NCBI RefSeq assembly: GCF_000003815.2
Contig: NC_049980.1
Location: 11,061,422 to 11,125,421, forward strand
DNA length: 64,000 nucleotides
Source: Branchiostoma floridae
Taxonomy: Eukaryota > Chordata > Leptocardii > Amphioxiformes > Branchiostomatidae
Reading direction: 5' to 3'
Position 1 is the stretch's first letter; the number at the start of each line of letters is the position of its first letter. This document shows, one piece after another, positions 5,501 to 64,000 of the stretch. Under the pieces are notes generated by a model that was not told the origin of the DNA, did not search any database, and saw only the letters and a list, made by a program, of their open reading frames with translations. The translations under genes were made by a program, and so were the position numbers.

Positions 5501-8500
5501 ACTCAAAATTCAATTCAAAAGTGGAAGTCTGTATCAGATTTTAGCTGATCTATCTAACTTTATATTTATGACCTTGCAGAATACCCAAGTATATCAATGA
5601 CCTTGATCTGAAGGTTGAGAAGTGTTCCAGACAAGACTTGGCCTTCATGAGAAAAGTGAGTATACTTTGAAGTAAAAGATATACATTCTCCTCCTATCCT
5701 GTAATTATTAACCTTCTCTCTGCTGCCTAGCCACATAACCAATACAAATTTAGTGGATAAATGGCTACCTTAGCCTGCTGAAGGTTAAGGTGGAGGGGTT
5801 AAAAGATGCATCTATCCTCTAGGAGTAACATAACTGTTATGATTTGTTAATATGATTTTACATGGTACATGTATTGTAAAGGGTTTCTAAGGCCACACCA
5901 ATTTAATTTCTTGGTTCACGGATTTTTTCATAAAAAATATGGAGCGAGAGGGCGAAATAAAAATAAAAATAAAAATCGTAAAATGGTTGGGATAAAGGTA
6001 ACGGCTAATCCAAAACATAAAGAAAAAAGTTTTCAGCTTGAAAAAAGTACAAAAACACTATTTTTGTACAGTAACAGCACCTGTACCCACACTTTAAGGA
6101 GCTTAAATATAAAGGCCAATTTGCTACTGTAACACCAGAAAGTTGGTGAATGGTTTCATTAATGGTGAAAATTTGCTGAGTGGTAATTTTTAGTTTTATT
6201 TTTTTTCCCAAAAAATAGGAGCGAGCGAATCCGTGAACCAAGAAAATAAATCGGTGTGGCCTAAAACTTTCAGATTATCCTATGAATGTTCCACCTAGTT
6301 TGATCCCTCACTTTGACCTTGAGTGAACTTTCCTCTGTACTCCATCCAGATGATTCTGTCCTTTTCTCTCCACCCAGTGTGTGTAGAGCACAATGCCACC
6401 TTAAATCTAATCTACCCTTCCATAACTTGATTTCACAGTTAAGCCTCCTACATTTCCCAATTTTCAACTCTCACATCTTGGCTTTAAACTTGATTAAGTG
6501 CGCGTAAGACTGGGATAAGCCAAGGCACAACTTAGTTATCCTTTTGTTTCCAGGAGTGCTTGTGGTTGACAAATACACACAGATTCCACCTTTAACTCAA
6601 TAATTCAAAAGTGTATCATAATAAGGTTAAAGGGACTATACCACAGGTTTGCCTAATGTACGTGNNNNNNNNNNNNNNNNNNNNNNNNNNNNNNNNNNNN
6701 NNNNNNNNNNNNNNNNNNNNNNNNNNNNNNNNNNNNNNNNNNNNNNNNNNNNNNNNNNNNNNNNNNNNNNNNNNNNNNNNNNNNNNNNNNNNNNNNNNNN
6801 NNNNNNNNNNNNNNNNNNNNNNNNNNNNNNNNNNNNNNNNNNNNNNNNNNNNNNNNNNNNNNNNNNNNNNNNNNNNNNNNNNNNNNNNNNNNNNNNNNNN
6901 NNNNNNNNNNNNNNNNNNNNNNNNNNNNNNNNNNNNNNNNNNNNNNNNNNNNNNNNNNNNNNNNNNNNNNNNNNNNNNNNNNNNNNNNNNNNNNNNNNNN
7001 NNNNNNNNNNNNNNNNNNNNNNNNNNNNNNNNNNNNNNNNNNNNNNNNNNNNNNNNNNNNNNNNNNNNNNNNNNNNNNNNNNNNNNNNNNNNNNNNNNNN
7101 NNNNNNNTACCTTTACCATCTGTCTGTACTTTGTATGTGGCACTCATAACACAAGCTACTAGTTTGAGTGCAGTGCCACATTGTCATTGTCTGTCCCAAA
7201 GCAAAATGAAAATTATAGGAAATAAAAATGAACCATCAGAAAAAACATTTAACAGGCTGAGAGTTTTTGAGGAGTCTTCGCATGATATTGATGCCATGTT
7301 AAATTCCTGTCCCCAGCACGGCCCCCAGTTCTACTCCATGCTGTATGAGAACCTGCTGCAGCACGACAACAGTGATGAGAACTTCCACGCCATCTACTGC
7401 ACCATGGCCCTGCTGTGTGTGGAGATGGGAGGGGAGGATGTACTGGTGGAGCTGCTCAGGCTCACACTGGGGCTGCAGGTGGGATGGAGAGATGAGTGAG
7501 TGAGTGAGTGAGTGAGTGAATGAATGACTACTGCACCATGGCCCTGCTGTGTGTGGAGATGGGAGGGGAGGATGTACTGGTGGAGCTGCTCAGGCTCACA
7601 CTGGGGCTGCAGGTGGGTGGATGGATGGATGATGGAGGGAGGGAGGGACAGATGGAAGGATGGATGGAAGGAGGGATGGATATGGATGGATGGATGGATG
7701 GATGGATGGATGGATGGATGGATGGATGGATGGATGGATGGATGGATGGATGGATGGATGGATGGATGGATGGATGGATGGATGGATGGATGGATGGATG
7801 GATGGATCAATCGATGGATGGATGGATGGATCAATCGATGGATGGATGGATGGATGGATGGATGGATGGATGGATGGATGGATGGATGGATGGATGGATG
7901 GATGGATGGATGGATGGATGGATGGATGGATGGAACAATCGATGGATGGATGGATGGATGGATCAATCGATGGATGGATGGATGGATGGATCAATCGATT
8001 GATGTTTTTTCAAAACTTGTAATGCATAAGAGTACACACTTCCAAACTACCAATCAGTAATAAGGACATTCTAGCTTGAATGTACAACTAAAATGATTCT
8101 GTAGTCAACAATATGAGTCTACAATTTCCAGGCCTGCCTGTCTTAAAGGCACATCTTAGGAAAATATAATAGACAAGTAACCATATCTTGCACACATGTC
8201 GTTCCTTTAATATACAGTCAAGGTGATTTCAAGATGATTGGTAAAGCTACTATGGATGTTACACCAATATAGTCAATGCTATGATTACATGTAGGAAATT
8301 GCCTGCAAGCCACAAGAGGAAAACGACCTCTCAACTCCGCACATCTGCAAGCTCCATGCTGTCCTTGCTGCATACTTGAACCTGATCAGTCAACTAACCG
8401 CCATCCCTGCCCTGTGTCAGCATGTCACCCAGGTGAGTCATCTCACACATTTCAATACAATCATATATAATACAACACGGTGTATTCCGTATCACCGGAG

Positions 8501-11500: not shown

Positions 11501-14500
11501 GATACAGTATGGATGTCCAGTCTATCAACATCGAACTGGACCAGGTGGACACCCCTGGCAGGGACCGGGTAAGGCATCGTTCAACACTTTGGAAGGTTCC
11601 CACAGTTCATGCTAGTTCACCTTTATCCATGCTAACAGTTAACCTATATCTGTCATATTTGAATCGGGATATTTGGTGATATGAAGTCGACGGTCATGCA
11701 GTGGATTCAAATTGCAATATTTTGAATGAATTGAAATTTGAAACCACAAACTGTCAAATTGATATCACCGAATACCCTGATTTAAATACAGCGGATATAT
11801 GTTACCCTCCGGATAAAGGTGAACTAGCATTACATTGAAATAAGTTCTCAATACTCATAAAGGAAAAGAGTCCCTTTTGAGTACGACTTTGTATTTCTTT
11901 CCTATGCTTTCCAAATGTATCATGGTTTGTCAATTTCTGTTGTGGGAAGTAGTTTAGTGTTGTCCTATGTTTTCCCATACTTACAGATTGGGATACATTA
12001 GATTACAGGTTTTTATTTATTAGGAAATGTGGAGACCCTTGAATAGGCATTGTCTTCTGTGGGTATTGTACACAATAGCATGTTTCTCCTTTGTTATTCT
12101 AACTTTTCTTTTCATGATCATGAAGTAGACTATATTGTTCTTGACTTGCACTGACACTTTACTTCATAATCTAATGAAACTGTTAAAATTTTTAAGTTAC
12201 CTTCTTCCCTATGTTTTTGTTCTCTTTGTACTACTTCTGTTTCCTTTTGTTTCCTTGTTCCTAGACAAGTTTCCGTGCATGTAGTCTTGTGGTAAGTTCC
12301 CAGTGCTTTTACCCCAGTTTCTTTCTCAATTTTCAAAACATACCTTCCAAAACAGTATTAGATATTGTATTTCCTTTAAGCACATTTATGTATGTATATT
12401 TGTGTGTGTCTGAGTGTAATATACATTAGATAATATAATGTTGATAACTCCAAATATGCAAATAACTTGTCTCGTGTTTTTTCTTAATCAGAAACACCCA
12501 GGGGAGGAAATCACCTTTGAAACTTTGAAGAAAACCTTAAGTAAGTCCTCATGTCTTACCTTGATGATATGCTTACAATGTATCTGTACCTTGTTCCTTA
12601 TGTATGATATATATGGTCTCAATTTATTCAATATGACCGAGAGGTCGCCGGTTCGAATCCGCCTGCCGTGTTGCCGGTTTTGTGCCCTTGGGAAAGGCAC
12701 TTTACACGACTTTCCTCACTTTACTCAAGTGAAAATGAGTCGTCCCTCGGATAGGACGTTAAAATGGAGGTCCCGTGTTTGGGGAGAGCCACACCCCAGG
12801 CACGTAAAAGAACCCGCCACATGTGCGATGGTGGGATGTGGCGGATCAAACAATTCCGGCCAAAATGGGGTAGGGAATTTCCCGAGCAGCCTCGTAACCC
12901 CTGCTTCGCCTATTGAGTCAGTGAAGTCAAGCTTGATGTTTCTGACTTAGGGAGAAGAGATGCTGCTACAGTTATCGCTATGGGCCGCTCTTCATCACCA
13001 TGATGGTAACATCAGGCCCTACGAACATGATTTGAAAAAAAAAAAAAAAAATATTAGTTAACATAGGAAACTTTAGGTATTATGAAAATATCAGTTCTAT
13101 TCATACACTGTATTAGCTATTACGCCCAAAAAGTCTATAGCTGTATATTTAGTAAATTTGTCGCTTTAGCAGAGGAATGCCATTCATAAGGCTAGCAAAA
13201 GGTATGTTGGCAAACCAAATTGTCTATTAGTATATACATTCATGGTACAAATGTACTGCAACAATATTATATCTATGTTACATGTTGTGTATGGCTAGTC
13301 AGAAACTTAGTGTATTTTTATGCTGCCCTAGTTGGGCTAGGTTAAAAAAACACGAACCTGACCATGTAAATATTGAAATTTCTAATCTCTTGTTCTCTCT
13401 TCAGCTGAGAAGACACCAGATGCAGAAGATGATGAAGCAAGAAGAAGGGAAGTGGTTGAAAAGTTCCAGAATGCACCGTTTGAAGAGATAGCAGCCCATT
13501 CTGAGGCCAGGGTAGGCCATTTCCATAAATGCCACAAATCTGTGTTTTATCACTTTGGTAGTTTGAAGAGGGCTCTATATTGTGCACCCTGTAGTGTCTA
13601 TACCCTCGTAGTGTCCGTCCTCTCGTGGTATCCATACCCCCGGTAGCGTCCATACCCCCTGTAGTGGCCATACCCTCTGTATTGGCCATAACCCCTGTAG
13701 TGTCCGTACCCCAGGGCCTGTATTGTCTGTACCCCCTGCATGTAGTGTCTATTACCTTAGTAGTGTCCGAGCTGCATCCTAGGTTTACATTGTTTGAAGA
13801 AAACTACCAGTTTGAAGCGTGTGAAAGTGTACCCAATGCTTATGGTAATTGTTTTCTTGAAACCCCCTTTTCAGTCCCAGCAGCTGAACAACAAGCTGAA
13901 TGAGATCATGGACATGGTGTCAAAGTAAGTCCATATGACCTCTCTGTTACATAGTTGTAATGTAGCAACATTTCACAACTTGTTGGGGTTTTGAGTAGAA
14001 TATCAAAATAACACACTATCCATGCATGTCAAAGATGAAATAAATGAATGACAAAAAAATGAAAATGTTAATTATATAGTACCAAGTATATAGTCTCATT
14101 TGGCCAATGGACCTATTTAAATGTTTTTGAAGGTTTGTATTCATAAGATTATGGTCATATTTGCAATTGCATGTAATCTAGGTACGATTCCCTCAGTTGT
14201 TACATAAACATGCATTGTCAAAAACTTGTAAAAATCTTGCTGATAATTCCTCCAAAAGACAGGTACCAGCTGATTACGAGTTCAGCACCAAGGACAGCAT
14301 CTATCATGACTTATCTTTTGTAATTTGACATGTTCATTGACAATGAATATTCTTATTCATCTATGTGGAATAAATGACCAGATTTCTACCATATGTTGGG
14401 CTGAGCAGTATTTCAGCACCAAGGACAGGATCATTTTACACACTTTTTTAAAGTATTGTTTTCAAGCTTGCAAGAATGTGTATAGAAACACTAGTCTACA

Positions 14501-18904: not shown

Positions 18905-19849
18905 TAAAGGTGGGTTTACACCTGCGTATATTTTCAAGTGCGCATGATTTCCGCATGAAATTTTGTCAATACGCGGCCGAACGCCCAACATTTGGATTTT
19001 TTTTGGAATAAATTAAATTGTACGTCGAGCCCATCTGGCGTTTGAATTACGACTTCAGCGTTTTCATTTCGCATGAGATGCGTATGATTGCAACTGAAAT
19101 GCGCAACAAAATTTTCCGTACTGCGAATAGATTCGTATGGGGTACGTCTGTTGGGCGTTTTCCGGACGCACACAACGTCTACCGACCGCATGCCTGACGC
19201 ACCTGGTGCTAACTGCATTCCAAACGCATTTCAGGTGTGTCAGAGGAACAGTTTGTGTTACATATACTTTTGTTTGCGAGCATTGCCAATAGAGTATTTT
19301 TGTTAGAGGAACCCTTTGTACTACGTATGCCTTTGTTTACAGGCAGTGCAAGTAGAACATTGACAAGTAAACAGTGAAGAGGTTTTTTTTATTCATTTGC
19401 GAAGCAGTAAAGCAGTGACACTGTGCTTTTACAGAAATGTGGGCCATCATTTACCTTAAGAAATTATGTGCACTGTTAAGATTGTGTTTTTTTCACTTTG
19501 TCCTTAATGATTTCCCCTATCATCTTAGTATTTCAACTATAAAAATCACACTCATACACACCACAAAACGTATTCAAGATCTTTATCAAACACGTAAATT
19601 AAACAATTATGAAACCTTACGCCCTCTGTCAAAGTTGTAATATGGCTCTATATTGCACCTTTATATCATGTGGTTCTACACACAAAAAAGTGCCATTATC
19701 AGCAAATTAAGTCAAATATCTGTTACACAAAATGGCACGTGTGTCACACAAATTGACCCAGTGCTTGAGCAGGTTCCTCTACATCTTCCCGTCCCTGGAG
19801 GCTCTGTTGGGACCAGTGTCCTGCATTCATAGTGTCCTGCAAGTTGTGA

Positions 19850-20360
19850 CCATCTCTCCATGCCCCCGGTACAAATTCGTCGGTCCTGGCCTGGATCTGA
19901 CATCATAAACCGGAAGATTCAAAAAAATCCCTATCGACCAGAGGGTTTGTCCATTCTGTCCAGAGCTAATAGAAGACGAATATCACTTTATGGTTGTATG
20001 TCCCAAATATTCCGATATACGCAATTCTCTATACAGAAGGCTGTCATTTTGTACACAAGGATTTATCCAAATGGACCTGAGGTGCAAATTCAAATACATA
20101 ATGACATGTGACAATCCCTGCATGGCAGATATAGGAAAATATATCAAAGAAGGTTTAGACATTAGAAATTCCCCAAATGATTGTAAAAGCCTCCAATGAT
20201 TGTAAGAAACTTATCCCATAATACAACTCCTGTATTAGTTAGATAAGCCTTAACTAAAGTTAAGAGGTACAAAGTATAGCATCTACATAACTACAGTGCT
20301 ATGCCATACTTTGTACCTCGTACAATTGTTGTGCAATAAAGTTATATACATCTTGAGATG
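19850..20360 (+). mobile_element. LINE ORF2 C-terminal fragment and 3' end
   Basis: A frame ending at about 20199 carries the CPFC…EDEYHFMVVCPKYSDIR zinc-knuckle-like motif (CxxC…HxxxxC) and KYIKEGLDIRNS. These are typical of the extreme C-terminus of non-LTR retrotransposon polyproteins. A 3' hairpin follows (GAGGTACAAAGTATAGCAT / ATGCCATACTTTGTACCTC), then an AATAAA motif near 20335. The inverted partner in the right arm covers the part ending at the gap (21282 to about 21530, minus strand). Confidence 0.6.
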
Positions 20361-20832: not shown

Positions 20833-21281
20833 NNNNNNNNNNNNNNNNNNNNNNNNNNNNNNNNNNNNNNNNNNNNNNNNNNNNNNNNNNNNNNNNNNNN
20901 NNNNNNNNNNNNNNNNNNNNNNNNNNNNNNNNNNNNNNNNNNNNNNNNNNNNNNNNNNNNNNNNNNNNNNNNNNNNNNNNNNNNNNNNNNNNNNNNNNNN
21001 NNNNNNNNNNNNNNNNNNNNNNNNNNNNNNNNNNNNNNNNNNNNNNNNNNNNNNNNNNNNNNNNNNNNNNNNNNNNNNNNNNNNNNNNNNNNNNNNNNNN
21101 NNNNNNNNNNNNNNNNNNNNNNNNNNNNNNNNNNNNNNNNNNNNNNNNNNNNNNNNNNNNNNNNNNNNNNNNNNNNNNNNNNNNNNNNNNNNNNNNNNNN
21201 NNNNNNNNNNNNNNNNNNNNNNNNNNNNNNNNNNNNNNNNNNNNNNNNNNNNNNNNNNNNNNNNNNNNNNNNNNNNNNNNN
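20833..21281. other. Assembly gap
   Basis: Run of 449 N at the loop of the inverted structure. Confidence 0.99.
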
Positions 21282-22475
21282 AATTTGCACTTCAGGTTCA
21301 TTTGGATAAATCCTTGTGTACAAAATGACAGCCTTCTGTATAGAGAATTGCGTATATCGGAATATTTGGGACATACAACCATAAAGTGATATTCGTCTTC
21401 TATTAGCTCTGGACAGAATGGACAAATCCTCTGGTCGATAGGGATTTTTTGGAATCTTCCGGTTTATGATGTCAGATCCAGGCCAGGACCGACGAATTTG
21501 TACCGGGGGCATGGAGAGATGGTCACAACTTGCAGGACACCATGAATGCAGGACACTGGTCCCAACAGAGCCTCCAGGGACGGGAAGATGTAGAGGAACC
21601 TGCTCAAGCACTGGGTCAATTTGTGTGACACACGTGCCATTTTGTGTAACAGATATTTGACTTAATTTGCTGATAATGGCACTTTTTTGTGTGTAGAACC
21701 ACATGATATAAAGGTGCAATATAGAGCCATATTACAACTTTGAAAGAGGGCGTAAGGTTTCATAATTGTTTAATTTACGTGTTTGATAAAGATCTTGAAT
21801 ACGTTTTGTGGTGTGTATGGGTGTGATTTTTATAGTAGTTGAAATACTAAGATGATAGGGGAAATCATTAAGGACAAAGTGAAAAAAACACAATCTTAAC
21901 AGTGCACATAACTTCTTAAGGTAAATGATGGCCCACATTACTGTAAAAGCACAGTGTCACTGCTTCACTGCTTCGCAAATGAATAAAAAAAACCTCTTCA
22001 CTGTTTACTTGTCAATGTTCTACTTGCACTGCCTGTAAACAAAAGCATACGTAGTGCAAAGGGTTCCTCTAACAAAAATACTCTATTGGCAATGCTCGCA
22101 AACAAAAGTATATGTAACAGAAACTGTTCCTCTGACACACCTGAAATGCGTTTGGAATGCAGTTAGCACCAGGTGCGTCAGGCATGCGGTCGGTAGACGT
22201 TGTGTGCGTCCGGAAAACGCCCAACATACGTACCCCATACGAATCTATTCGCAGTACGGAACATTTTGTTGCGCATTTGAGTTGCAATCATACGCATCTC
22301 ATGCGAAATGAAAACGCTGAAGTCGTAATTCAAACGCCAGATGGGCTCGACGTACAATTTAATTTATTCCCAAAAAAATCCAAATGTTGGGCGTTCGGCC
22401 GCGTATTGACAAAATTTCATGCGGAAATCATGCGCACTTGAAAATATACGCAGGTGTAAACCCACCTTTACGCGG

Positions 22476-50185: not shown

Positions 50186-53100
50186 TCAATTCAAACCTGT
50201 AGACCATATGAACAGGTAATATGACCAGAAACAGATGTTGAAGAATGAAAAGGCAGCCAAGAACACTATACGGGTCACATAATCAATCTGTTGGCTCAAG
50301 TACGTGTGTACATCCGGGTCATTTATGTCAGAGTCAGTGTCAATGACGTCAGAAGTTGCATCTGTGACGTCAGTCACCATGCTACCGTCTGCCATGCTAC
50401 TGGTATCCTCCGATGATTTGCCGGTGGTGTTCAGGGTGTCGTATCCAGAGGTTTGGCTATCTACCTCGTCATGCAGGTCGAGATTTTCAGAAGCGATTTG
50501 AGGGGGATGACTCTCGCGGATGTTGTTCATAACTGGGATTGGACACCTGGGCACATCCACTTCCGGCTCAGGGTGGATTTCCGCAACCACTACTGACAGT
50601 TCACCTGGTCCATTATCCATTTTGTAGTCTCGCATGTGGGGCGTATTTCTACCTTCAGAGAAGGAAGTCTCCTGGGTTGGTGGGACGTAAGCAATCCTCC
50701 ATCCTTGGCCGTCCGCTTGCTCCCACCATATCCCGAGAGGGCTGGAATATTTCGCACGAGGGATGCAGACTTTCAGCTTTCGTGGTTTGTTCTCTACCGG
50801 GCGCTGAATAGACAGAATTAGAAAATGTCATAATCAAAAATAATATAATATTGTTTATGAGCGATGATGATAGCAAGGGTTGTGAGTTTTTCTTAAAGAT
50901 GGAAGTGATCTCCATTAAAGGTACAGAATAAAGTCAAACATGTACAATTTGCCACCGCTTCATAATGACCACCTGGTCAATGTGGCTACCTTTGGTGGTC
51001 TCTTAGATGATTTTTCCCACAAGCATTACAGAGTTATGTCTATTGGGAACACCTGTCCACATAGACCAGATTCTATCGGACCTCTGAGTGGTCTTCTTGT
51101 GTAGTCTTGACTGTAGTCATCCGGAAATATTTTGGGAATCCAACGTAAGATAATTCTTTAACACCTCCCATCCCCCGGATTGTGCAAAAATAAAACTACT
51201 TACCTCTAAGTTCTCTTCCCGTCTGCTGTAAATGTAGTAAACTACGACAGTCTCAGCCAGGGCCAGGACGATGAAGACGAGACAAACGATCAGCCAAATG
51301 TCTATCGCTCTTGCAATAGATACCTGCGGGGTAGAAACAAACCAAAATACGGACCGTCAGTGTCGTGATGATGATGATTTTTGTGATACTGGTTTTTATA
51401 TAGTACAATTTAGGTACGATATCATCGATTGTGGTGCTAATAGTGAAGGATACAAAAGAGTTATGTTACTTCTTACTTCATTGTTGACCTGTATCTTCCT
51501 GCATTTGAGAAACAAAACAGTTGAACACATAAAGCTTCGCTAACTCTAAATCAACGTCACCCAAAAGTGGCTTGCAAAGTTGGGAAGTTGGGGCAAGTGC
51601 ATCTATCGAAACATTACATGTACTTTCGTATTACCCACCCAGAGTATTCTGTGCTTCAGGACGCCCTTAGAGATCATCACCAGGAGTGGGATGATCCCGA
51701 GAGTGATGCGGCCGGAGATGGCTTTCTGGTGCAGCGGCAGCCATGTCTGCATGAGAGACGCCACCACGAGGATGAAAGACGGGATGAAAGTAGTGGAGAT
51801 GTAGATCCACAGGCGCCTGGTCATACCGAGCTTGACTGATACCGTGGTGTAACTGTTGGTGTCTGAAAACAAATCAATCACACACGGTGTCAACACAATT
51901 CACATGATTAAAATCATATTGAAACAGTATGAAGCAAAGTTGTGGTGTAATAAGTTTTAACACAAAATATGGACTTTTGATTGTCCATCTTCACTCTCCG
52001 CCTGGGAATGAGTAATCCACAACTTCTGTGACGTCATGTTTTTAAGGTTAAACATGTAACGCATTGAGCAGTGGATCATAATCATAAGTTGCTGAAGTTT
52101 ATGGTACACCTCTGCCCCTGTTAAGCCTAATCATCCACTAACATATCCGATATTGGTACTAGTAAATCAATTTTTCATACATGGACACCATAACACTGTT
52201 TTATCTGCATAACCGTAACTCACGTTCCGTGACAAAGACTATAGTCGATAGTTGGATAGTCGAAAATTAAAACTTTTTCTGTTAGAAATTACACTTCAGA
52301 ATTATTTGTACCGACAAAGATGAGCTTGCAAGCGAATCTTGATAACAGTGTCATGGTGATGATGGTCAAAATATGTACACCTAATAAACAGAAGCGTCTC
52401 CCTGAATATCTTGCCGTTGTACTTGAGTGGAAGGCAAGTTCAACACGAACGGTTCAAAGCTTTCAAACCTTTGTGGAGGTTGTTAGCGCTGCGAGCCACC
52501 CTGCGCGCCTCCTCTGATACCCTGCGTGCTTCCTCGGGACAGTCCGCCTTCTCCATCGCACACTCCCCCACAGTCGTGCGGCAGTCCTTAGAGCTGGTGA
52601 AGGGGCACGTCTCAGCATTGTACTCACACGATTGCCTGAAGTAACTGCAGTCTGGAAATTGTAATTCGATAGTATAAGGAATTCGCTTTTTTGTGTGTAT
52701 TTCTTTCTTTATCAATGTTTATTTGTTCCCTTAATTTGCTTTCTTGTGTGTCTGTAGTTATTTGAGTACAGTACTAGTGTTGCTTGTTTCCACATCCTAG
52801 GGGCGTTAGGAACACTGACCGGAAGTTAGGTCAAGGGTCCCAGAAAAGTTTATCTTATTTTCCGTCTTCAATCTCTTGGTACATGTATGTCTGTTGTCTT
52901 ATGAGAGCCTGAGTGGGAAAATGCATTAAGCAGTTTAGCACTGAGAAATTTGCAGCAATGACTGAGGAAAGAATTTCACAAAAAGAGATGTTTTATCTTC
53001 AATTTTGCGTTGGCTCTCTGTCTGAATAAAAGGTATATGCTACATTTGCACTTTTAAACTGTCACGATAATGTCGTTGTGATGGTGGTATCATTTACAAA

Positions 53101-55385
53101 CCTGAGACGTTGGTGAGAAATGACTGTAAGGTCCCAGACAGCTGTACCCTGCTCAGCATGAACTGAGACACCACTTCGGCACTGTCAGTCTTTATCTGGT
53201 CCCGGGATGTGTCGCTGAAGGACATCAGTCGGAACCTGACTCCGTTATCTGCACGTATGGTAGGAAAACAAGCATTATTCATCTATTGTCTGGTAATTTC
53301 AATTACTCAAGTGAATGTTAGATTTTTAAAACATCATAACATTATAAACAGGTGGTTCCTAATCTATATCTAATCTACGGACGTGTCCTGATCATTTAGT
53401 TCATTAGATTCTAGCTAATTCTGACAACAAATTCAAACCAACAAAACAATAGTCTTTCTACAGTGCTGGCACCCCTTCCTCGCGAAGGTACCAATGAGAA
53501 ATGCATCAGATTTTTGTTCAATCATTGCATTCAGGTCGCTCAACGGCCTGTGTGGGACGTGTGTAGAAAACTACTTACATCCATGAAGCGGCATGATGCA
53601 GCCCTGACTGTCAAATGGAAAGTGTTCAAACTTCACTCCCGAACAAGATACCTGTAGGTCACGGCTGCAAAGATAAATCAAACACTTATAAAAGAGTACA
53701 AGGTATGAACAACGATGTGTAGAATTCATGGTTCTAATGAAAACCTTGCACCAGACTAGCTGGTTGCCTTCGTTTCCGGAGGCTTTGTGTTTGGTATACA
53801 TGACTGTTATGTTCTTGTGTGTCCGCAGTCATTTAAACACACAGTCAGTGTTAGGAAGTGAGTGAGAATATTATCTAAAAATCTGACTTGGCACTTTGGA
53901 GAGTGACAGGAGGTGTCAGACATGACAGGTCACGGGGTCAATGGAAGAGACTATTAATTTACAGGATGGCATAGTTTTTGGTCTGTCTTCTCGTCTGTGT
54001 TTTCATGGTTATGTATTTTAGATATGCTGGTGACCTTCATTTAGGATAAGTTTCGTACTCACATCATTCTAAAGACAGTCAGCCCACTCTTGTGCAGCCA
54101 CAGGGATATCCCCGTGTCCGATGTACTCCCCCTGTCCACGACAGATGTCCTTCTGATGTTCCTCCCGAAGCTCAGTGGCGGTGTCCAGAGTAGGTCCGGG
54201 GGAACGGGAACCCAGGAGGTGGTCAAGCCCTTTAGTCGAGGATCTATCCAGGCCAGTACGTACTCTAGAGTCGTAGATATATTCTGTAGAAAAACAGACA
54301 CACGTATACTGAAAAAAACGGCCATATCTGTAATTGTTTTCTCGTTTACTGTGGGTCCAACACTCATTACTCACAAGCCTAAAACATGCTTTCGAACTGA
54401 GTCAGACATACTGACAGGTTATACAGTTCAATGTACAGTTGTAAGGGAGAAGTTAAAAAGGTATGCCATTGTTTGTAAATGAGAATTGTTGAAACAGAAA
54501 TGATGTAATAGAAATGATGTAAAACAGTCAAATGTGGAGTACCAAATAAGAATAGCATTTGTATCGTAACATGACGTCACATATATACTTACCACATGTT
54601 CATCATCAAGCCAGCCGAGACGACGGACGTACACAGTCGAAGAGACCTCCGACCATCTGTCCGTGTTGCTTTCTAAAACGACATTGCAGTTGTTGTTTTT
54701 TACTTGCTGATCCATGCACATTCATGACGTACTTTATACGTTATAGGTGACCATAACACATTAATTTGGACATTTACGCCTTTCAAGATTACTAAGTCAA
54801 TGTCCACCACTGATGTTCGGACTACGCACGACGACATTACCTAAAATCGAGGAGGTTAAAGAGATACTCCTTGTTGTAATCTACCTTCTATTACACACTT
54901 TTCTTTTGGCAGAGACTTATACGTGGTAATGAATTCTACAAATTTTACTATTACTGGACAGGTGTTGAAAATAAAGCTGTGGCGGTCCGACTAACAATGG
55001 TTGAAGTAGGCCAATATGGCTATAAAGCATTCTAGTAAAAGATAGCTTAGATAAATGTCAAAGTGCAAAGATTGTCTCCTACCCCCACTTGTTGGTCTCT
55101 GACTCTTGTCATATCTTGGCGGTAGCGGCTCGCCTGTCTTCCAGAGCTGCCATTCTGTCCAGCTGGCGTTACCCCCACTCTCAGGCTCGTCCGGGTTATA
55201 CTCGCCCTTTGGTAATGGAATACGCAGCGTCAAGGAAACTATCTTTTTACTTTTTGTCACGGTGAAATTAAAGAGTAGATATACCCAGTTGCCATTTTTT
55301 GGCGAAGACTTATTTATAGTAGTGTTAGGCTTGGTTAGATGCCCAATTTTTGGAGGTTGTTTCCAAAAGCACCTGAAAACCAAAC
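50186..55385 (-). other. Module 4: Cys-loop pentameric ligand-gated ion channel subunit
   Basis: Exon 55083-55385 (phase 1-1) gives a ~85-residue stretch unlike known channels, then YDKSQRP, the usual start of the ligand-binding domain. Next come VSSTVYVRRLGWLDDEHV (beta 1), NISTTLEYVLAWIDPRLKG (beta 2), VPPDLLWTPPLSF (loop A), and the Cys-loop CSGVKFEHFPFDSQGC. A six-cysteine cassette in loop C follows, then M1 LWIYISTTFIPSFILVVASL, M2 SGRITLGIIPLLVMI (Leu at 9'), M3 AIDIWLIVCLVFIVLALAE, a ~170-residue acidic Ser/Thr-rich loop and M4 RIVFLAAFSFFNICFWSYYL, ending STGLN. There is no glutamate at -1' and an Arg at 0', which leans to an anion channel, though the canonical Pro-Ala before the Arg is absent. 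Ligand unknown. Confidence 0.93.
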
Positions 55386-58300
55386 CTGCAAAAGTTAAAG
55401 TACTGGAACTGAGACAATCTCAAATTGTGATGGACAACATATTTTGCACTTTACAGCGTATGTCGTCAGACGAAAGTTAATCCATTGATAGTTACTTTAA
55501 GTAAATACATTTGTATTATCATTTATGAAAATGTTCAATCACACCACCAAATGGTCTTCAATTATAACACTTACAGCTAGGTATTTATCCCATATGCCGT
55601 CTCCTGCAGCTAAAGCATTCCCAGGATCGTCTGAAGTAGCTGCTACTGATGCGAGTGTGGACGGGGGCTCTTCAGTCGTAGTTGGGATGCAAGGTGTATC
55701 TGTAACAATATTTTCATTTCATTTTAGATTTATGATGATGGCGATGATGATGATGATGTTGATTGTGCCCTTTGTGCATATTAGACTGTTGGAAGGCAGA
55801 CTGTTACTGAGGAAGACTATTTCTGTTGGTGAGAGCAGACGGACATCAACCCGAATATAATGATGACGGATGTGATCAACAGTAATGGACTTAAAAACGC
55901 GCTTGGGCACGCTTGGGGGAAGACGTTACTCTTCTAACGTTACAAGGAGAAGACTGTAACTGAAAAGTGAGGGAAACAGTCTAGGAAACCTTTCTCTTTC
56001 TCTTTAATGCATTGTAAGGGGATGGTTGAATATTTTCGAAACCAACTCTGTCAACTCATCTGCCTTCTCCACATGTTTGGTTTATTTCTCAAACACAAAG
56101 CGCGCGTAAGTAATATATCAACTTCATTATGTCTTTCGGTTTGACGTATGAATTCTTTGTGCCTGATAAAAACTTCCTATACTCACTGTCAAAGTTGACT
56201 GGCCTCATCATCATTGTAGATCTCTTGAGTGAATAACCAGACCCCTTCCAGGTGTGCCAGACAACCCCTTGAGACGGGTCACAGTAAGGGTTACAGTCCG
56301 TCAGGTACTTCCCGTTTAGGAACGCGTAGCCGCAACCTGAGGAGAATGAAGTACACATTTATGTTACTCCATGTCATCATCTATGTCAACACCATCTATA
56401 GCAATCACCTTTAATGCGAAAGAAGGAGGAGGAGTAGCCTCTGTTGCAGTCTCCAAATGGGGCGAAAATTCTTTCCACCGTAAACTCCCTTCCTCGGCAA
56501 ACTCCTGTTCCCGGCATAAGAGAACCTAGCTGAGCAACGTTAAAAATCGTGAACCAAATAAGTCAATAAAAAAACAGCCCCGTTCGAAGATTGCAACGTA
56601 GGCTAGAGGAGGAAGAGCAACAAGAGTGGCAGGGGAAAAAGAGGAGGATGAAGATGACATCCTCTACAAGATATGTCTTACCTGGTGGATACCACCATCC
56701 GCCTTCACTGTACGTTGACGCACAGTTGAAGTCTTCATTGTCGTCATTCTTCACGTCGAAGGTTGAGAATTGTTGGCCGTTGGCGTTGTACCGTCCGTCT
56801 GGTGCCAAACTGTCTCCTGCGTCACCCGCAAAATCTCCTATCTGAAGATGTTGATTGGCAAAAATGTAAAAGAAAATTGAAATGGCTTTCTTGTTTTCGT
56901 CATTAATCATCTTTCTATCCACTTAATTCAATGCTGCTTAGTAAATCACGTCTTCGGTATCAGTTACCTCCGCAAAACAGAGACAGAAGTATTGTTTCCG
57001 GCCTGTGCGTTTGTCTGTCTGTCTGTCTTGGAGCGTGTCTGCAGATGTTTCTGCAGTTATGTAAATAGTATAGAGTGGCAGATCTAGAGTACAAGGTAGT
57101 AATGGTGTCAAAAGATGTCAGCAAAATTGGAAGTCTTATTTCGCTTGTTATTTTGGTAGACCATTTACAAATTCTATTAGAATTTTAGGTTTCTGGGGAA
57201 GGGGAGGCATTGATCGTGTTTTGGCAACTGAGTGAAATAGACAAGAACATCCGTATTGTACCTCCAACGCATAGAACGAAGTAATGTCTCCAACGTTGAA
57301 CGTCCGGTAGGTCGCCTCAGCCACGTTTCCGTCCCAATCCTCGAGCTCAATGATCAACTCGTAGTCCGACGTTGACGTCAGGCGATGTGCTTTCTCCAAA
57401 CCCATCCACACCTCTCCGCTTGGGTCACCAAATCCTGCCTGGTAGTCACTCCAAGGCCTCCCAAAGTCCACCGACCCGTCCTGTCGTCGTTGTAAGATGG
57501 TGGAACCACAGTTCAAAGTTGTCATGCGACAGTAGACTTCGAACGGAGGATATCCCACGGAATAGACGCCATCTTGTCGTTCCCCGGACGCGAACAGGTC
57601 GGCGCAATCCATAGGCCCACTCGGTGGGAGGCAGTCGTCGGCTGGAAGTGGATTGGTCGTTGAGGGGAACGAAAGAGTAAGTCATAAGAGAAGTGATATC
57701 TGATGTGTTTTCCAGTAGCAATGTTCATCCGTAATTGCTGTGATATTTACACATATAAGGTATACATTCCCCTGCGCTCGGCCGCGGCCTATACAATATA
57801 TAAAAGCACCTTGGGAAAGCTCTGCTAAACCGGGCTGAGATTATTTCCACTTGAGGTGGCCGCTGACCATCAACGATCCTCTATGGGTAACGTTATCTCC
57901 TATGTTTTTCTTTACATAAAGTTGAATTTGTGATTGACATACAGTTGGTTAGAGGCCACACCCACAAAAGTGGAAACCTCAGCCCGATAGAGCCTCCGGA
58001 GCTCCCAAGATACATTGTATAGGCCCCGCGAGAGGCTCTGTGAGAGAGAATGAAGTATGAAGTATGCAGTGCCAACCTTGGGGTCTGATGACCATGAGAG
58101 TCCTCCGCAGAGAATAGCCCGCGCCCCTCCACGTCTGCCACACCACGCCCTGCGACGGGTCACAGTGGGGATTGCAGTCACGCAGGTACTTCCCGTTCAG
58201 GTAGGCATATCCACATCCTGCAGTAACAAACGTCATCAAGTTCAGAGCTCCATAATTACAATCAGTGATCACAAAATCGCCGTATCTAATGGTGAGTGGT

Positions 58301-61300
58301 AGATCTGTATATCATTTTTCACACTATGGTTACGACGTAATAAAACCCGAAGGTCACTTCAAGGTTACGGGTTACATGAAATTGGTCCGGGACAGCATCT
58401 CTTCGTTTTTCTAAGTACAAAAAATCATGATTGAGACAAGATAGGCTCACTGAGAGTGCTAACTGATCAGTAGGAAAAGCCATGGTTAACCAGGTATCTC
58501 ACTGAAGCTGTGGCACGTTGGCGGCGTTGCGCCGTCCTAGCAAGGACCTGGTTTATGTACAACTATGAATAAGAACTGAACTGAACTGATGAATAAGAAG
58601 ACAACAAAACACACAAAGCTAAAAAAGATTCATTTTCGTCGATGAAATTCGCTGAGGGCTCTGTGAAATTCACTCGAACGCCACCAACATGCCGCAGCTT
58701 CAGTGAGACAAACGCTTTTCAAAGACTGCTCAGGAAAGTCCCTACTCCATTTTGAAGTTTTTTTTTTTCATTTACCTCATCACAAGAAAAATAACCTTAA
58801 CATCTTGAAGAATCCTTGGATAAGACAATAAAAAGAAATCTCACCTGGGGGATACCACCATCCGCCCCCGCTGTACGCCTCCGCACAGTTGAAGACGCCG
58901 TTGTCGTCGTTTTTGCGGTCTGTAGTAGTGAACATCTTTCCACTGGAGTCATAGCGTCCCACCGGGCCCATGCTATCTCCAGCGTTACCGGCGTATGCGT
59001 CAATCTGTGGGCAAAAAGACAAGAACATTGCTTAAGAGTTGATATAATGCGAGAAAGTTTGAGGAAAACATCTAAACCTAAATATTAGCTATATGTTCAG
59101 GCCCCTTTCCACTACACGATCGCTGAGCGACCAAATTTGGATTTTGGTTAACCTGATGCAAGATTTAAAAGTATGACAAAACACTCAAAACATAAAAGAA
59201 ACCGTTCTTTATGTAAGAAATTCGTTGAGCGATCTGTCATCAAAGTGGTCGCAGCCTCCAGAGGAAAGAGGTGTTAGAAACTGGACATTTCATGTAGGAC
59301 AAAGATGTCGAAATTTTAAGCTGACACTGAAATCAAAATCATAGCAAAAGCGACCGGAATGCTCAGAGAATGTGTATGAAAATGTACCGTCAACTCGTAG
59401 TTGGTGTCCTCTGTTCCAACAGAGAACACGGAGTAGCTGGCGTGAGCCGTCACACCGTCCCAGTCTTCCAGAAGGATGTGGAGCATGTGATTCCTTCTGG
59501 AGGAGATGACACTGATGTTCTTCAGCCCCAGCCACATCTCTCCATCTAAGTCCCCGAAGCCGTTCTCGTAGTCACTCCACTCCCTCTCGAAGTCCAAAGA
59601 GCCGGATGTGCGGCGTTGAATGACGGTCCCACCGCATCCAAACGGGTCCATATCGCACCAGACGTTAAACGGCGGGTCGTCCACCGTGTAGATGCCGTCA
59701 TCTCGGGACCCCTTCGCGAACCAGTCTGCGCAGTCCCTGGGGGGTGGTGGATCCGGGGGACAAGCTATCGGGAAAAGTTTTCAACAGCACCATTCAATTA
59801 TACAAGTACATGATGTGTACAATGTTTTTTAAATTCAAAAGTAGTCCCCTAAACGTAAATAGGCTGGTCAAACCTCAGTGAACAATCCGCTCGGGGGAAG
59901 TGGTAATTTTTAAAACAATGAAACCTGGAACAATATAATATGGGGATGGAACAAGACAACAAAGGCTTGCCCTACCTATCTTATTACAACACATCATGCA
60001 ACTTATAATTGTGTCATCTCAACGTTCATGGTGTTCATAGAGACATAAATGGCTATTCGGGACCGAGACATGTAAAAATAAACAGTATGTGATTAGTTCG
60101 TCTTTAGTCTTGATCATCTAATTTGTCTCGTATCTCAGTCAAAGTAGCCAGACTTACGTTTCAATTGACCTCCATGGAAGCCGTAAGTCTCTTGGTCAGA
60201 GGAGCCGCTGACGACAATATCTGCAGAACGTGATAATGGACCTCAATGATACACAAACCACAGGAAAGGCGGCAATGATCGGTAAAAAAAAAGCATCTAA
60301 TTATTACTCTTGTTTATCTTAATTCTGACAAGTAAATTGTGACATTATTCATTATCCATTTGAGTATGATAAAGGTATAGAATAAAAATCAGCCGATATC
60401 GATTAACTAGCCTACATCAATAAATCAATTAATGAACAGACAGCCTTAAAGGCAATCTTATATGTATCCTTAATTTACGCCAAAAATAGTTACTCAAGCA
60501 ACTGGATATGGATTTGAAACGGTCAGACGTTTCGGATAGAATATCCAGTTGCTTGAGTAACTATTTTTGGCGTATCTTATTACCTGGATGTCTAACCTAC
60601 ATCGACGTATCCTTAATTTACAATATAGGAAATTATAAAAACTTTTACAGCGAGCCTAAACAGTTTAAAATAAACAGTGAGCTTACAGTGAGCCTTTTAA
60701 AAATGAGTTAGTGTGCTATTGCTTCAAACAAAGGTCTTGTCTAAAGAAATACGCAGCGACAAGTACACAGTGCACGAGGATGATATTGGATGTTCTGTGA
60801 CAGAGTTTTGTTTCGTAACACAATGGATAGAAATGCACAGTAGTGAGACGCTGACCATACACAGCTGTTGGATCAGTGTGAATGAGTGTATGGCTGTCTT
60901 CAGTAATGTCAGTACAGCCGGTTGAGTAGCCGCTCTGCAGAATCGGCGTCCAAACGATGGAAGGGTCCAAAGGGGAATCATCCAACTCAAACCCAGATGT
61001 TACCTGAGAAATATATGGTATTAGAAGTTAAATTGTTTTATCTTTGTGTTGCTTTTTTCTCTGCAAAGACTGGAATTGGACAGTCGTTAATCTGGCGTAG
61101 TCAATATTTGGTGTTGGAATTTACAGTCACGTTTCAGAATTATCTCCACCAAAACATTTAATCGTAAAATTTCCATCTTTTTTGTTTACTTTCATGCTTT
61201 TTGTTGTTGTTTCAGTTATGATTAATTAACATTGGATCCTTGATTGTATGACCCACAACAATGCCTGATTCTATTGACAATAAATGTAGTTGTAAAAAAA

Positions 61301-64000
61301 TCAAAAACATGAGCTATGAAAAATCAAAAACATGGGAAATGGTTTATGGGCTTTTGGATCCCAATCTGCATGTATGGCATGATTTCACGATGCATATTAC
61401 TAAGTACAATTTAACTATTGATGAGTCAGATTCTAAGGATTGACGTTGCACAAATTCACAGAAATAAAGATCTTAGCTAAGTTTTGCAGTCTATAGTATG
61501 AAAATCTGCTCACCTGTGACACGATGCAGAGCTTGCGGACATGTGTGCCGGGTCCCTGCAGGTCTACTGTTGTGAAGGTGTACGTGTTGTGGTAATTCTC
61601 CACAGCGGGAACAGTGGTCATGTACGGATCAGAATCACTCGCACTGAGATAAACATAGCAGGATTGTAGTTTGACTATTACATTCTGATTGGGGAAACTC
61701 CTAGTATGTTTATGAGTGAACATGTGCCAATAATTGCAAAGAAAGAGGAATAAAAAATGCATTGAATAACGTCGGTGAAGGATAGACATCCAGGTAATAA
61801 GATACGCCGAACAGCAATCACGTAAGCAACTGGATATGGTTTTGGAAACGGTCTGACATTTCAGGTAGAATTTACTACCTTTCGTCATTGTCTCCAGTTG
61901 CTTCAGTAATTGCTATTTGACACTAAAAATGCACATTTAAAGAAAGAAAAGAACTTTCGTCCCAACACTATCACACATTGTTGCATCGCCATACCCTTAG
62001 TGTCATTGTCTTCCATAATTTACTACCATATTCCATTGACTATCAAATAATTGTAAAGGTACATGTTCAAATGTTTTACTTGAGAACGCATTCGATACAA
62101 GTTATGAATGACTAACGGTCATCACCTTATCTGTACCACCATGACCGGAGCGTTGGATTTTATCTTCCTGAACTCGTTCGCGGGGACGTCGACGTCGAAA
62201 TACTCCCCTGGTTGTAGAGTCGTCGTTTCACCTCGGACGGTAACCTAGAAAAGTAGACACATCTACATTCCATGAAAGTTCGAGGTCATCTAGCAAAATG
62301 TACCCACCATATTGCCCTTGCTCGGACACATCGACTGAACTGTCGTAGAATCGCGCAATTGCCGACAAAACATCGGGTGCATTACTGCAGAAAATGTCAT
62401 TTAGAGCTCGCAGGCTCTTCGGTCGGTTGATTTTCTTTCTGTGTGACAATAATAGTGAGTACGCTTCAAATGAATGTTACAACTCCCTTCACGGAGCTGT
62501 TATTACCTAGCTATAGCAACCTTGGCAGTAGACGTTACCAAGTGTTCTTAAAGCTACTCCAAGGTACAGGTAAAACACATAATCACTTATTTGTGTTCTA
62601 CGCGACTTAGTATGGCAATACATACCTCGGTGTCGTCATTGGCAGCAATGACCCGGAAAAGGCCGGCAGAGCCCCGACCTTGAACCAGGTCCGGTACGGC
62701 CAGGTACTCCGTCCCCCATCCGTCCAGAGGCAGGACCTGGTCACTTCTCAGGCTACCACTGACCACTGCCACCGGCGCGCTCGAGGAGATGTGGGATCCT
62801 AAGGAGAATGTATATCATCAATCAATACATGTAGCTAACTTCCCAGTGTACGCGCGAAGACCATATCTATGTAGCAGAGAATCCTTTGACTGGGGTGGGA
62901 ATGTTGACAAAACTACTATCTTTATAATGAGAATTATTTTTGCAGATAACCAAAGCAAGAACAAAACCATCTGAACTGAAAGAGATTTGACTTTTGAATC
63001 GCTAAGTAAGGGTCCGGTCAAATATGTCATGCGATCTTTTATCGATAGCAAACTGAGGAAATTTGGGGGATAGTCCTAAAAATGCGGCTGTCTTGTTACG
63101 GAAATGCTGCCTGCGTGAAAGTACTGGCATTTTTATACTACTGATGTGGCAGGGTATTTGCTTGTCCACATGCGACCTGAAAACAGAATATCTAACGAGA
63201 CACACCGGTTAAGTCCCCCGCTGACTGGACCTGTAGCCCCTCATATTCCCCCAGTTCGACGTCAAAAGCTGTCCCGGCGGGGTAGGCCGCTCCGTCAAAC
63301 GTGACGTCATGAGTGGGTGTGATCGTGACCGTGGTGTCGGGGTAGGCGCTGATCACTCCAAATTCTGTCATTCGTGTGAGGAACAGTATTTAGCAAAAGG
63401 AAACCCGACTGAAAGGGAACTGTAGTTAGTTCTTGATGTACACAGCGATTGAGTCAGACAAAGAAGACGGAAACTCCCAATTGTTCATTTGGTGAACAAT
63501 TAATCCCTTTATAATGTGCTTTACCAATTAACTCCCGTGAAATATCGTACTAATGCAATTAGTACTGTTTACACACTTTATTTACTACAAATAAGCCTCA
63601 ATATTTGCCCTTCTTGATTCGGCTACGATTTGGCGTGAAGAGCAATGGAACGCTTGCCGGGGCATCAAAAAGAAGTACTCTAATATAGTTTTCACTGTAA
63701 CGTTACTTGGACATTTGGTTCATCTAACAAAAACAAATCGGTCTCACAGTAATTCGGGTCATTCTGACTAGAACATTGGCATAGCTAACACCCTGACTGT
63801 CAACTTTTATCATACATGCTCATCTTTTTTGTAGGATATAGTGCAGTTGGTTCTATCAAAGATACCAACGTTACAGGTGCATGTAGAAGTGATCGATTTA
63901 AATCATGCTCTTTCAAGCATTACCTGAGAGTTGCCCAGAGGCGCTGTACCCGGGAATGAAATATTCGCTCCCAAGAAATGAAATCGGCAAAACCCTATAG
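50186..64000 (-). CDS. Predicted IgGFc-binding/FReD/FReD/Cys-loop channel fusion protein (5' end off window)
   Basis: Visible exons in order: 63924-64000 (partial), 63206-63364, 62626-62798, 62126-62244, 61514-61643, 60856-61003, 60158-60220, 59388-59764, 58845-59004, 58077-58217, 57262-57641, 56682-56841, 56187-56336, 55083-55385, 54593-54672, 54063-54283, 53579-53664, 53102-53248, 52469-52651, 51639-51862, 51204-51323, 50186-50803. Every junction is GT-AG with matching phase, giving ~1,405 residues with no stop. Modules: IgGFc-binding N-terminal domain, two fibrinogen-like domains, pentameric ligand-gated channel. The key junction 56187 to 55385 joins phase 1 to phase 1 by skipping exon 55575-55699. 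No in-frame ATG exists in exon 55083-55385 or its open upstream stretch, so the channel part needs an upstream exon. Inferred: a surface channel with a lectin-like ectodomain. Alternative: two genes with an unseen channel start exon. Confidence 0.6.
52469..52651 (-). CDS. Loop-C cassette exon, six cysteines
   Basis: A 183-nt exon with phase 1 at both ends, acceptor TTTCCAG and donor GTTTGA (weak). It codes for 61 residues from DCSYFRQSCEYN to RRVARSANNLHK. Cysteines fall at residues 2, 9, 16, 24, 31 and 38, i.e. spacing 7-7-8-7-7, followed by an Arg/Glu/Ala-rich, probably helical, tail. It sits exactly between strands beta 9 (FMLSRVQLSG) and beta 10 (YTTVSVKLGM), which flank loop C in the family. 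Skipping it leaves LTNVSDTNSYTT, a normal-length loop. Confidence 0.8.
55539..55699 (-). CDS. Alternative C-terminal exon giving a secreted form
   Basis: An acceptor (TGTTACAG) at 55700-55701 opens this exon in phase 1 with FReD 2, coding NTPCIPTTTEEPPSTLA, a Thr/Pro linker, and ending GIWDKYLA. A GTAAGT donor follows at 55574, in phase 0. No acceptor of exon 55083-55385 accepts phase 0. If not spliced, the frame runs eleven more codons (VSVIIEDHLVV) to a TGA at 55539-55541. The simplest reading is a terminal exon for a soluble IgGFc-FReD-FReD protein, mutually exclusive with the channel part. An unseen small exon between 55574 and 55386 is an alternative. Confidence 0.45.
56187..57641 (-). 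other. Module 3: fibrinogen-like domain 2 (FReD)
   Basis: Three exons (57262-57641, 56682-56841, 56187-56336) with phases identical to FReD 1 and near-identical exon sizes (380/160/150 against 377/160/141), so this is a domain duplication with its introns. Motifs: MDCADLFASGERQDGVYSV, FEVYCRMTTLNCGSTILQRR, GSVDFGRPWSDYQAGFGDP, EVWMGLEK, IELEDWDGNVAEATYRTF, FAGDAGDSLAPDGRYNANG, DVKNDDNEDFNCA, GGWWYPP, LNGKYLTDC, SLKRSTMMMRP. It shares the unusual extra cysteine (NCGSTI) with FReD 1. It ends in phase 1, and may splice either to the channel or to the alternative end exon. Confidence 0.95.
58077..59764 (-). other. Module 2: fibrinogen-like domain 1 (FReD)
   Basis: Three exons (59388-59764, 58845-59004, 58077-58217) after a Pro-rich hinge CPPDPPPPRDC. 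The fold runs end to end: DCADWFAKGSRDDGIYTV, FNVWCDMDPFGCGGTVIQRR, GSLDFEREWSDYENGFGD, EMWLGLKNI, LLEDWDGVTAHASYSVFSVG, YAGNAGDSMGPVGRYDSSG, DRKNDDNGVFNCA (the Ca2+-site region), GGGWWYPP, LNGKYLRDC, SLRRTLMVIRP. FReDs of ficolins, tachylectins and FIBCD1 bind acetylated sugars or other surface ligands; which applies here cannot be told. The strand after the second Cys lacks the usual GGGWTV tryptophan and has GCGGTV, an added cysteine. The module has phase 1 at both ends. Confidence 0.95.
60478..60605. mobile_element. Foldback repeat, copy 1
   Basis: ACGCCAAAAATAGTTACTCA … CAACTGGATAT is followed ~30 bp later by its inverted copy (ATATCCAGTTGCTTGAGTAA … TTTTTGGCGT). It continues into TATTACCTGGATGTCTAACC. 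Intronic in the fusion gene. Confidence 0.75.
61783..61920. mobile_element. Foldback repeat, copy 2 (same family, opposite orientation)
   Basis: Begins AGACATCCAGGTAATAAGAT and has GTAAGCAACTGGATATGG, the complement of copy 1's right half. It then carries GGAAACGGTCTGACATTTC in place of copy 1's GAAACGGTCAGACGTTTC. More diverged than copy 1. Confidence 0.7.

Follow-up and report, generated by a model that had tools for sequence, protein, structure and literature searches.

To our knowledge, the Cys-loop channels of animals have mostly been described as receptors for neurotransmitters that carry no large additional domain. The best sequence match in the PDB to the channel half of the gene described here, queried without its loop-C exon, is the glycine receptor (GlyR) alpha-3 (E 2.1e-23), which was also the sole outside sequence in the comparison of channel cores. 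The likeness to GlyR alpha consists of homology in the ligand-binding domain (LBD) and the transmembrane (TM) part, the core of M2 and the AIDIW start of M3; identity to GlyR alpha-3 is 24-32% over the rows of the channel family treated below and 25% for the gene itself. The gene differs from GlyR alpha by a 14-residue Cys loop, the loss of the loop-D arginine, an insert at loop C, a head of one IgGFc-binding domain and two fibrinogen-like domains (FReDs), the missing -2' Pro and an M1-M2 link that is longer by two residues.

Octopus chemotactile receptors are neurotransmitter-receptor-derived channels turned to contact chemosensation; the cephalopod receptors of this type derive from nAChR, and the relevant passages of the source mention no added head (PMC11526382). 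DeCLIC, a bacterial, calcium-sensitive pLGIC, belongs to the same superfamily as the present gene and has an accessory N-terminal domain, a likeness drawn from its published description (PMC12664993). The sequence-only reading of this DNA had stated that it knew of no described channel with such an ectodomain. A literature search agrees, in that no description of a channel with an IgGFc-FReD-FReD ectodomain was found in the text retrieved; the exception, and the nearest case, is a line on B. belcheri 269420_PRF0, in which Neur_chan_memb occurs in a novel architecture shared with a B. floridae ortholog (PMC4967905). Neur_chan_memb is common to 269420_PRF0 and the present gene, and the architecture of the former is not given in that text (PMC4967905).

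The window is the whole stretch of 64,000 nucleotides analysed, from Branchiostoma floridae. Rebuilt exon by exon, the corrected gene occupies 64000-50186 of the minus strand and has 23 exons, coding for 1387 residues plus stop, with the 5' end open (Table 1). A single frame runs through IgGFc-binding, FReD, FReD, Cys-loop LBD and four-TM exons. All introns (22/22) have GT..AG ends, and the exon phases are consistent down to one terminal stop. Pfam matches of the corrected model, all above the cut-off (the curated one for the two channel domains), are IgGFc_binding PF17517 (E 9.7e-49, profile 5-294 of 297), Fibrinogen_C PF00147 (two stretches, E 4.9e-118), Neur_chan_LBD PF02931 (E 7.6e-11) and Neur_chan_memb PF02932 (E 2.6e-12). 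Domains, strand, frame, coordinates, canonical splice sites and matching phases are thus as the sequence-only reading had described them, its count of 22 exons being one short; a model built with its junction gives the identical set of four Pfam domains. Its observation that the channel half has no early ATG also holds, the first in-frame Met after FReD 2 being residue 928, inside the LBD. Addition of exon e0 moves the start of the PF17517 match from profile 31 to profile 5, and because the match then reaches profile 5-294 of 297, e0 is taken to belong to the gene. The signal peptide falls outside the window, as the first exon runs off the edge.

Table 1. Features of the IgGFc-FReD-FReD channel gene, in order of transcription (positions are those of the window)
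Feature	Position	Strand	Basis or remark
Exon e0, start of IgGFc-binding domain	63924..64000	-	Phase-1 donor fits e1; cut by window edge
Exon e1, IgGFc-binding domain	63206..63364	-	PF17517
Exon e2, IgGFc-binding domain	62626..62798	-	Gene model and Pfam
Exon e3, IgGFc-binding domain	62126..62244	-	Pfam; 27/38 identical in P0001
Exon e4, IgGFc-binding domain	61514..61643	-	Pfam; identical 34/44 in P0001, 37/44 in P0002
Exon e5, IgGFc-binding domain	60856..61003	-	Gene model and Pfam
Exon e6, past the IgGFc domain match, phase-1 exit	60158..60220	-	Gene model
FReD 1 exon a	59388..59764	-	PF00147
FReD 1 exon b	58845..59004	-	Gene model and Pfam
FReD 1 exon c, phase-1 exit	58077..58217	-	Gene model and Pfam
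FReD 2 exon a	57262..57641	-	PF00147; identical in P0010 from the first Met of P0010
FReD 2 exon b	56682..56841	-	Gene model and Pfam
FReD 2 exon c, phase-1 exit	56187..56336	-	Gene model and Pfam
Stop (56091-56089) and AATAAA (56086-56081) beyond the FReD 2 donor	56081..56091	-	Read-through of the FReD 2 donor
Linker exon (NTPCIPTT ... GDGIWDKYLA), internal	55575..55699	-	Between FReD 2 and LBD in P0001, P0002, P0010
First LBD exon, replaces the earlier 55385 start	55083..55206	-	P0001, P0002, P0010 models
LBD exon, beta 1 region	54593..54672	-	Skipped with frameshift in P0010
LBD exon with loop D (LEYVLAWIDPRL)	54063..54283	-	Gene model, alignment
LBD exon with Cys loop, 14 residues between cysteines	53579..53664	-	Gene model, alignment
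LBD exon preceding loop C	53102..53248	-	Gene model, alignment
Loop-C insert, rich in cysteine; one exon of 61 codons with phase 1 on both sides	52469..52651	-	Gene model, alignment
LBD end, M1 and M2	51639..51862	-	PF02932
M3 exon	51204..51323	-	Gene model and Pfam
Intracellular loop, M4 and stop codon	50186..50803	-	Gene model and Pfam

A phase-1 intron closes the IgGFc part, and each FReD as well as the loop-C exon is flanked by phase-1 introns. These module borders fit the bias to phase 1-1 exons reported for exon shuffling in lancelets (Huang et al. 2014, PMC4284660). Splice sites were scored with a small leave-one-out matrix; weak sites are the acceptors of e4 (-1.7) and FReD 1a (0.0) and the donors of e5 (1.0) and M1 (1.8), and these are crossed by proteins from other assemblies. 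The open frame 54840-54704 ('X2') was rejected as an exon, being absent in the orthologs and ending in a phase that suits neither of the exons after it.

The search for the same domain order in other amphioxus, as suggested with the sequence-only reading, was made at the protein level. A query carrying the junction of that reading, without the loop-C exon and M4 (residues 716-1110 scored), gave two matches out of 4969 candidates: the 1281-aa P0001 of B. lanceolatum and the 1226-aa P0002 of a B. floridae x B. belcheri hybrid. In a Pfam rescan both contain PF17517, PF00147, PF02931 and PF02932 in the order of the window gene, and the recurrence of this order in two other Branchiostoma assemblies points to more than chance. 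Compared with P0001 and P0002, identity is 90-96% for the FReD exons, 79-97% for M1-M2, M3 and the remaining LBD exons and 69-72% for the last exon. The first LBD exon is 78% identical to P0001 and 71% to P0002, and 59% identical to P0003 over a stretch of 27 residues. In the IgGFc exons covered by the two models identity is 69-90%, with the exception of e3 in P0002 (6/38). P0001 and P0002 are without the first half of the IgGFc domain, their matches beginning at profile 152 and 203 of 297; P0002 starts near e3, inside the domain, and neither shows a signal peptide by eye. The start of the P0001 model is probably a repeat and doubtful: the translation of 12636-12737 of the window, a repeat-like stretch, is 68% identical to P0001 residues 15-47. 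This repeat is the one match for the ten database proteins in 1-50000 of the window.

The third model, P0010 (B. floridae, 'fibrinogen-like protein 1', 374 aa), is by its sequence a truncated piece of the window gene. Its first 304 residues are identical to the window model and span both 56187|55699 and 55575|55206. It starts inside FReD 2, skips exon 54672-54593 and ends in a frameshift, its last part being the product expected from that skipping. The best solved-structure match of P0010 is angiopoietin-like 4 (E 1.8e-50), and the closest solved relatives of FReD 2 are angiopoietin-like 4, angiopoietin-2 and FIBCD1. None of P0001, P0002 and P0010 is a clean model, which weakens the case for a fusion.

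The main correction concerns the junction of FReD 2 and channel. The sequence-only reading had proposed a splice 56187|55385; by the small leave-one-out matrix the acceptor at 55385 scores 10.8 vs 1.2 at 55206, a difference that explains this choice. The models P0001, P0002 and P0010 do not use this splice; they have 56187|55699 and then 55575|55206, and the 56187|55385 model was rejected because the linker exon is taken instead. Nothing in P0001-P0010 significantly matches the 59 residues added by the 55385 start (best E 0.37), and Pfam shows no known domain in them. The stop at 55539, earlier named as an alternative transcript end, belongs to an exon that is internal in the same three models. 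The linker exon is identical to P0001 in 26/42 and to P0002 in 27/42 positions; both ends are conserved and the Thr/Pro/Ala-rich middle is variable. Among the plain, lectin and EGF members of the channel family nothing matches it significantly, which counts against the fusion. A homology between the linker exon and the Thr/Pro-rich stalk found in the lectin channels was rejected, the similarity being not significant.

The claim that one gene joins IgGFc, FReD, FReD and channel is upheld by three Branchiostoma models, P0010 covering only FReD 2 to the first LBD exon. From these gene models FReD and channel are probably present in one transcript. Lancelet domain fusions can, however, be annotation errors common to two species, as in a refuted Lectin_C example (PMC4967905), and both this source and PMC6071037 caution that predictions for several lancelets may repeat one false fusion. 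These documented convergent errors lend some weight to a misjoining of two neighbouring genes, one for a secreted IgGFc-FReD-FReD protein that terminates within or shortly past the FReD 2 exon and one for a channel with its own signal-peptide exon, repeated in three assemblies, which is considered unlikely. The weak acceptor at 55206 (1.2) counts against the fusion. In agreement with a misjoining, the FReD 2 exon, if translated beyond its donor, stops at 56089 and is followed by AATAAA at 56086; against a misjoining, the linker exon is kept with both junctions in models from three assemblies, and a protein terminated after FReD 2 needs no linker. The plain sister P0003 begins, as judged by eye, with an apparent signal peptide, but a scan of the 487-bp intron that precedes the linker, run with no positive control, gave no first exon resembling a signal peptide. 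Further upstream the scan gave two calls in 7.8 kb vs about 0.8 expected (background 10 per 100 kb of strand), at 59240 and 56910; both have phase-1 donors and would suit a separate channel gene, yet both sit in FReD introns and one runs into a FReD 2 exon. The lectin and EGF heads on sister channels, themselves gene models, make a head expected. The locus is a checkable case in the dispute over real and annotation-made domain fusions in lancelets.

The stop and AATAAA beyond the FReD 2 donor mark the possible end of a soluble IgGFc-FReD-FReD form; of the six poly(A)-type hexamers found in the 22 introns (9650 bp), two lie in the 487-bp intron after FReD 2. A soluble short form may thus exist beside or instead of the channel form. 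Production of both, by alternative polyadenylation or exon skipping, would give a soluble protein and a channel as a receptor/decoy pair and is compatible with the single hybrid channel gene preferred below; we hold it as a tentative proposal. The poly(A)-type signal next to the stop speaks for it, and P0010, by skipping 54672-54593 and stopping early, would be a FReD product without channel. The phase-symmetric loop-C exon could be skipped as well (omission of 52651-52469 preserves the frame, phase 1 on both sides), but the loop-C insert is included in all nine database channel rows P0001-P0009, and the isoforms are predictions.

The gene is very probably a member of a family of related amphioxus channels with a loop-C insert. 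Searching with the core of the three FReD-type channels gave eight proteins at E<=1e-5 among 6518 candidates, all from Branchiostoma, the eighth being the FReD piece P0010. The ten channel rows compared, the window gene and P0001-P0009, are likewise all Branchiostoma. As predicted from the models, the core is shared and the N-terminal head varies between none, C-type lectin, EGF and IgGFc-FReD-FReD. P0003, P0004, P0005 and P0009 ('glycine receptor alpha-like') have cores 39-52% identical to the FReD group and the insert in common with it, and differ from it in having no Pfam head; P0003 seems by eye to start with a signal peptide, and the N-termini of P0004, P0005 and P0009 are incomplete or unclear. 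P0006 and P0007, from two assemblies, join a C-type lectin to the channel (Lectin_C E 3e-12 and 2.2e-9) and have a hydrophobic start, by eye a signal peptide, and P0008 joins EGF domains to the channel (Pfam rescan). These three have the same core with an N-terminal extracellular module, but another module than the FReD group. The lectin channels have a Thr/Pro-rich stalk, whereas the FReD group has the linker exon, with no significant similarity between the two. P0001 and P0007 appear to share a chromosome, as do P0002, P0006 and P0009, and P0003 and the gene of P0010.

The FReD group (98/100) and the lectin group (100/100) are supported in the tree, and six of its eight inner branches are open, so the tree does not give the order of head gains. 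The protein searches need shared five-residue words, and a third search returned five Branchiostoma rows and missed P0006 and P0007 although both lie within its length limits; the searches are therefore insensitive, and the restriction to Branchiostoma is given as found, not as proof of absence elsewhere.

Loop C is the lid of the classical ligand site. GlyR alpha-3 has no insert there. In the insert of the family C9, C16, C23, C31, C38, C45 and VG.C are invariant in all eight aligned rows, the window included, and P0002 and P0004, outside this alignment, also have the six cysteines. Searches of the inserts against Pfam gave sub-cut-off matches only, to zinc-finger models for two of four inserts and, for the insert of the window gene, only to MSG (0.35). 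In the FReD group the insert lacks the CxxC pair present in the remaining members and is longer by about 19 residues, which are charged. A structure prediction for P0003 with seven rows (pLDDT 47.9) was too poor for the fold of loop C; searched against the PDB, the best 50 of its 1176 matches were glycine or GABA-A receptors, repeating the sequence result.

The loop-D arginine, which we take to be part of the agonist site in glycine and GABA receptors (GlyR Arg65), is replaced by Val, Asn, Ser or Met in 9/9 rows covering the position, P0009 not covering it. Loss of this arginine together with the loop-C insert would agree with a channel that glycine or GABA no longer opens. The Cys loop usually has 13 residues between its two cysteines. 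In the window gene the two cysteines close a loop around F/YPxD, CSGVKFEHFPFDSQGC, by a putative disulfide, and in the FReD-type rows (3/3) the loop has 14 residues instead of the usual 13; the count is 13 in GlyR alpha-3 and in the six further rows of the family that were measured, and 13 in the alignment for P0009, a value not measured by script. The motif -2'Pro -1'Ala 0'Arg is presumably the selectivity motif of amino-acid gated anion channels. Pro at -2' is absent in 10/10 rows, all ten have Gly or Ala at -1' (no Glu) and Arg at 0', and the link between M1 and M2 is two residues longer than in GlyR alpha-3. A Pro at 7' of M2 occurs in the FReD group alone (3/3 rows). Leu at 9' is conserved in every row (10/10), which makes a pore plausible. 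By homology of the LBD and the predicted four-helix TM part, the gene is placed in the Cys-loop superfamily and not as a glycine receptor.

IgGFc-binding domains occur in mucus proteins, and FReDs are recognition domains. The explanation favoured for the whole, with moderate confidence, is a hybrid channel encoded by one gene, which has left transmitter sensing and whose head binds glycans, mucus or matrix. The protein would begin with a signal peptide coded beyond the window edge and continue with the IgGFc-binding domain, FReD, FReD, linker, GlyR-like LBD with the loop-C insert and four TM helices; the phase-1 introns at which its modules meet follow the classic pattern of exon shuffling. 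Five subunits would assemble into a pentamer, each contributing one IgGFc-FReD-FReD arm; the site for the classical amino-acid transmitters would no longer be used, and the head would bind glycans, mucus or matrix multivalently. Once bound, it might anchor the channel at the surface or pull on the LBD and so help opening; the loop-C insert, with its putative disulfides, is a possible coupling part between head and LBD. Gating or positioning by mucus, microbial or matrix glycans had already been proposed in the sequence-only reading. The octopus receptors are a precedent for the turn from neurotransmitter to contact sensing (PMC11526382), and DeCLIC for an effect of an added N-terminal domain on gating (PMC12664993). 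Given the fusion, a role of the head in gating or placing the channel is reasonably likely.

The head may on the other hand be only an anchor or spacer, tethering the protein to mucus or matrix, with the channel opening to another small dissolved ligand; this amounts to the favoured explanation without gating by the head and seems possible, though it is not what we expect. Head types vary while the channel core is kept, as such a role would suggest, but loop C is rebuilt by the insert in every row of the family. In DeCLIC gating seems to be sped up by the N-terminal domain, whose part in calcium sensing is described as unclear (PMC12664993); this was counted in favour of the anchor. Extended to the whole family, the hybrid-channel explanation would make these proteins pattern-recognition receptors, in which amino-acid binding was lost, loop C became a disulfide-rich lid and exchangeable heads were acquired through phase-1 exon shuffling, glycans of microbes, mucus or matrix opening or holding the channel to give an electrical or ionic signal; this extension is rather doubtful. 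If true, it would link pattern recognition directly to ion flux in a chordate channel family and provide a eukaryotic test bed for the control of Cys-loop channels by accessory domains.

Two tandem myosin regulatory light chain genes, present as pieces, adjoin the channel gene on the minus strand (tblastn of window peptides). The pieces lie at 32209-32132 and 30189-30019, and at 25305-25225, 24949-24848 and 24377-24279; a query joined from the two copies gave PDB matches near 1e-25, and EF-hand models stayed under the cut-off. The stretches 18937-20052 and 21320-22438 are inverted near-identical copies flanking an N gap at 20833-21281; they are 96-100% identical at the protein level in two probes, and one probe resembles by eye the end of a retrotransposon protein. 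Translated in several frames, a long simple repeat at 7302-8057 yields HPSI and DGWM repeats.
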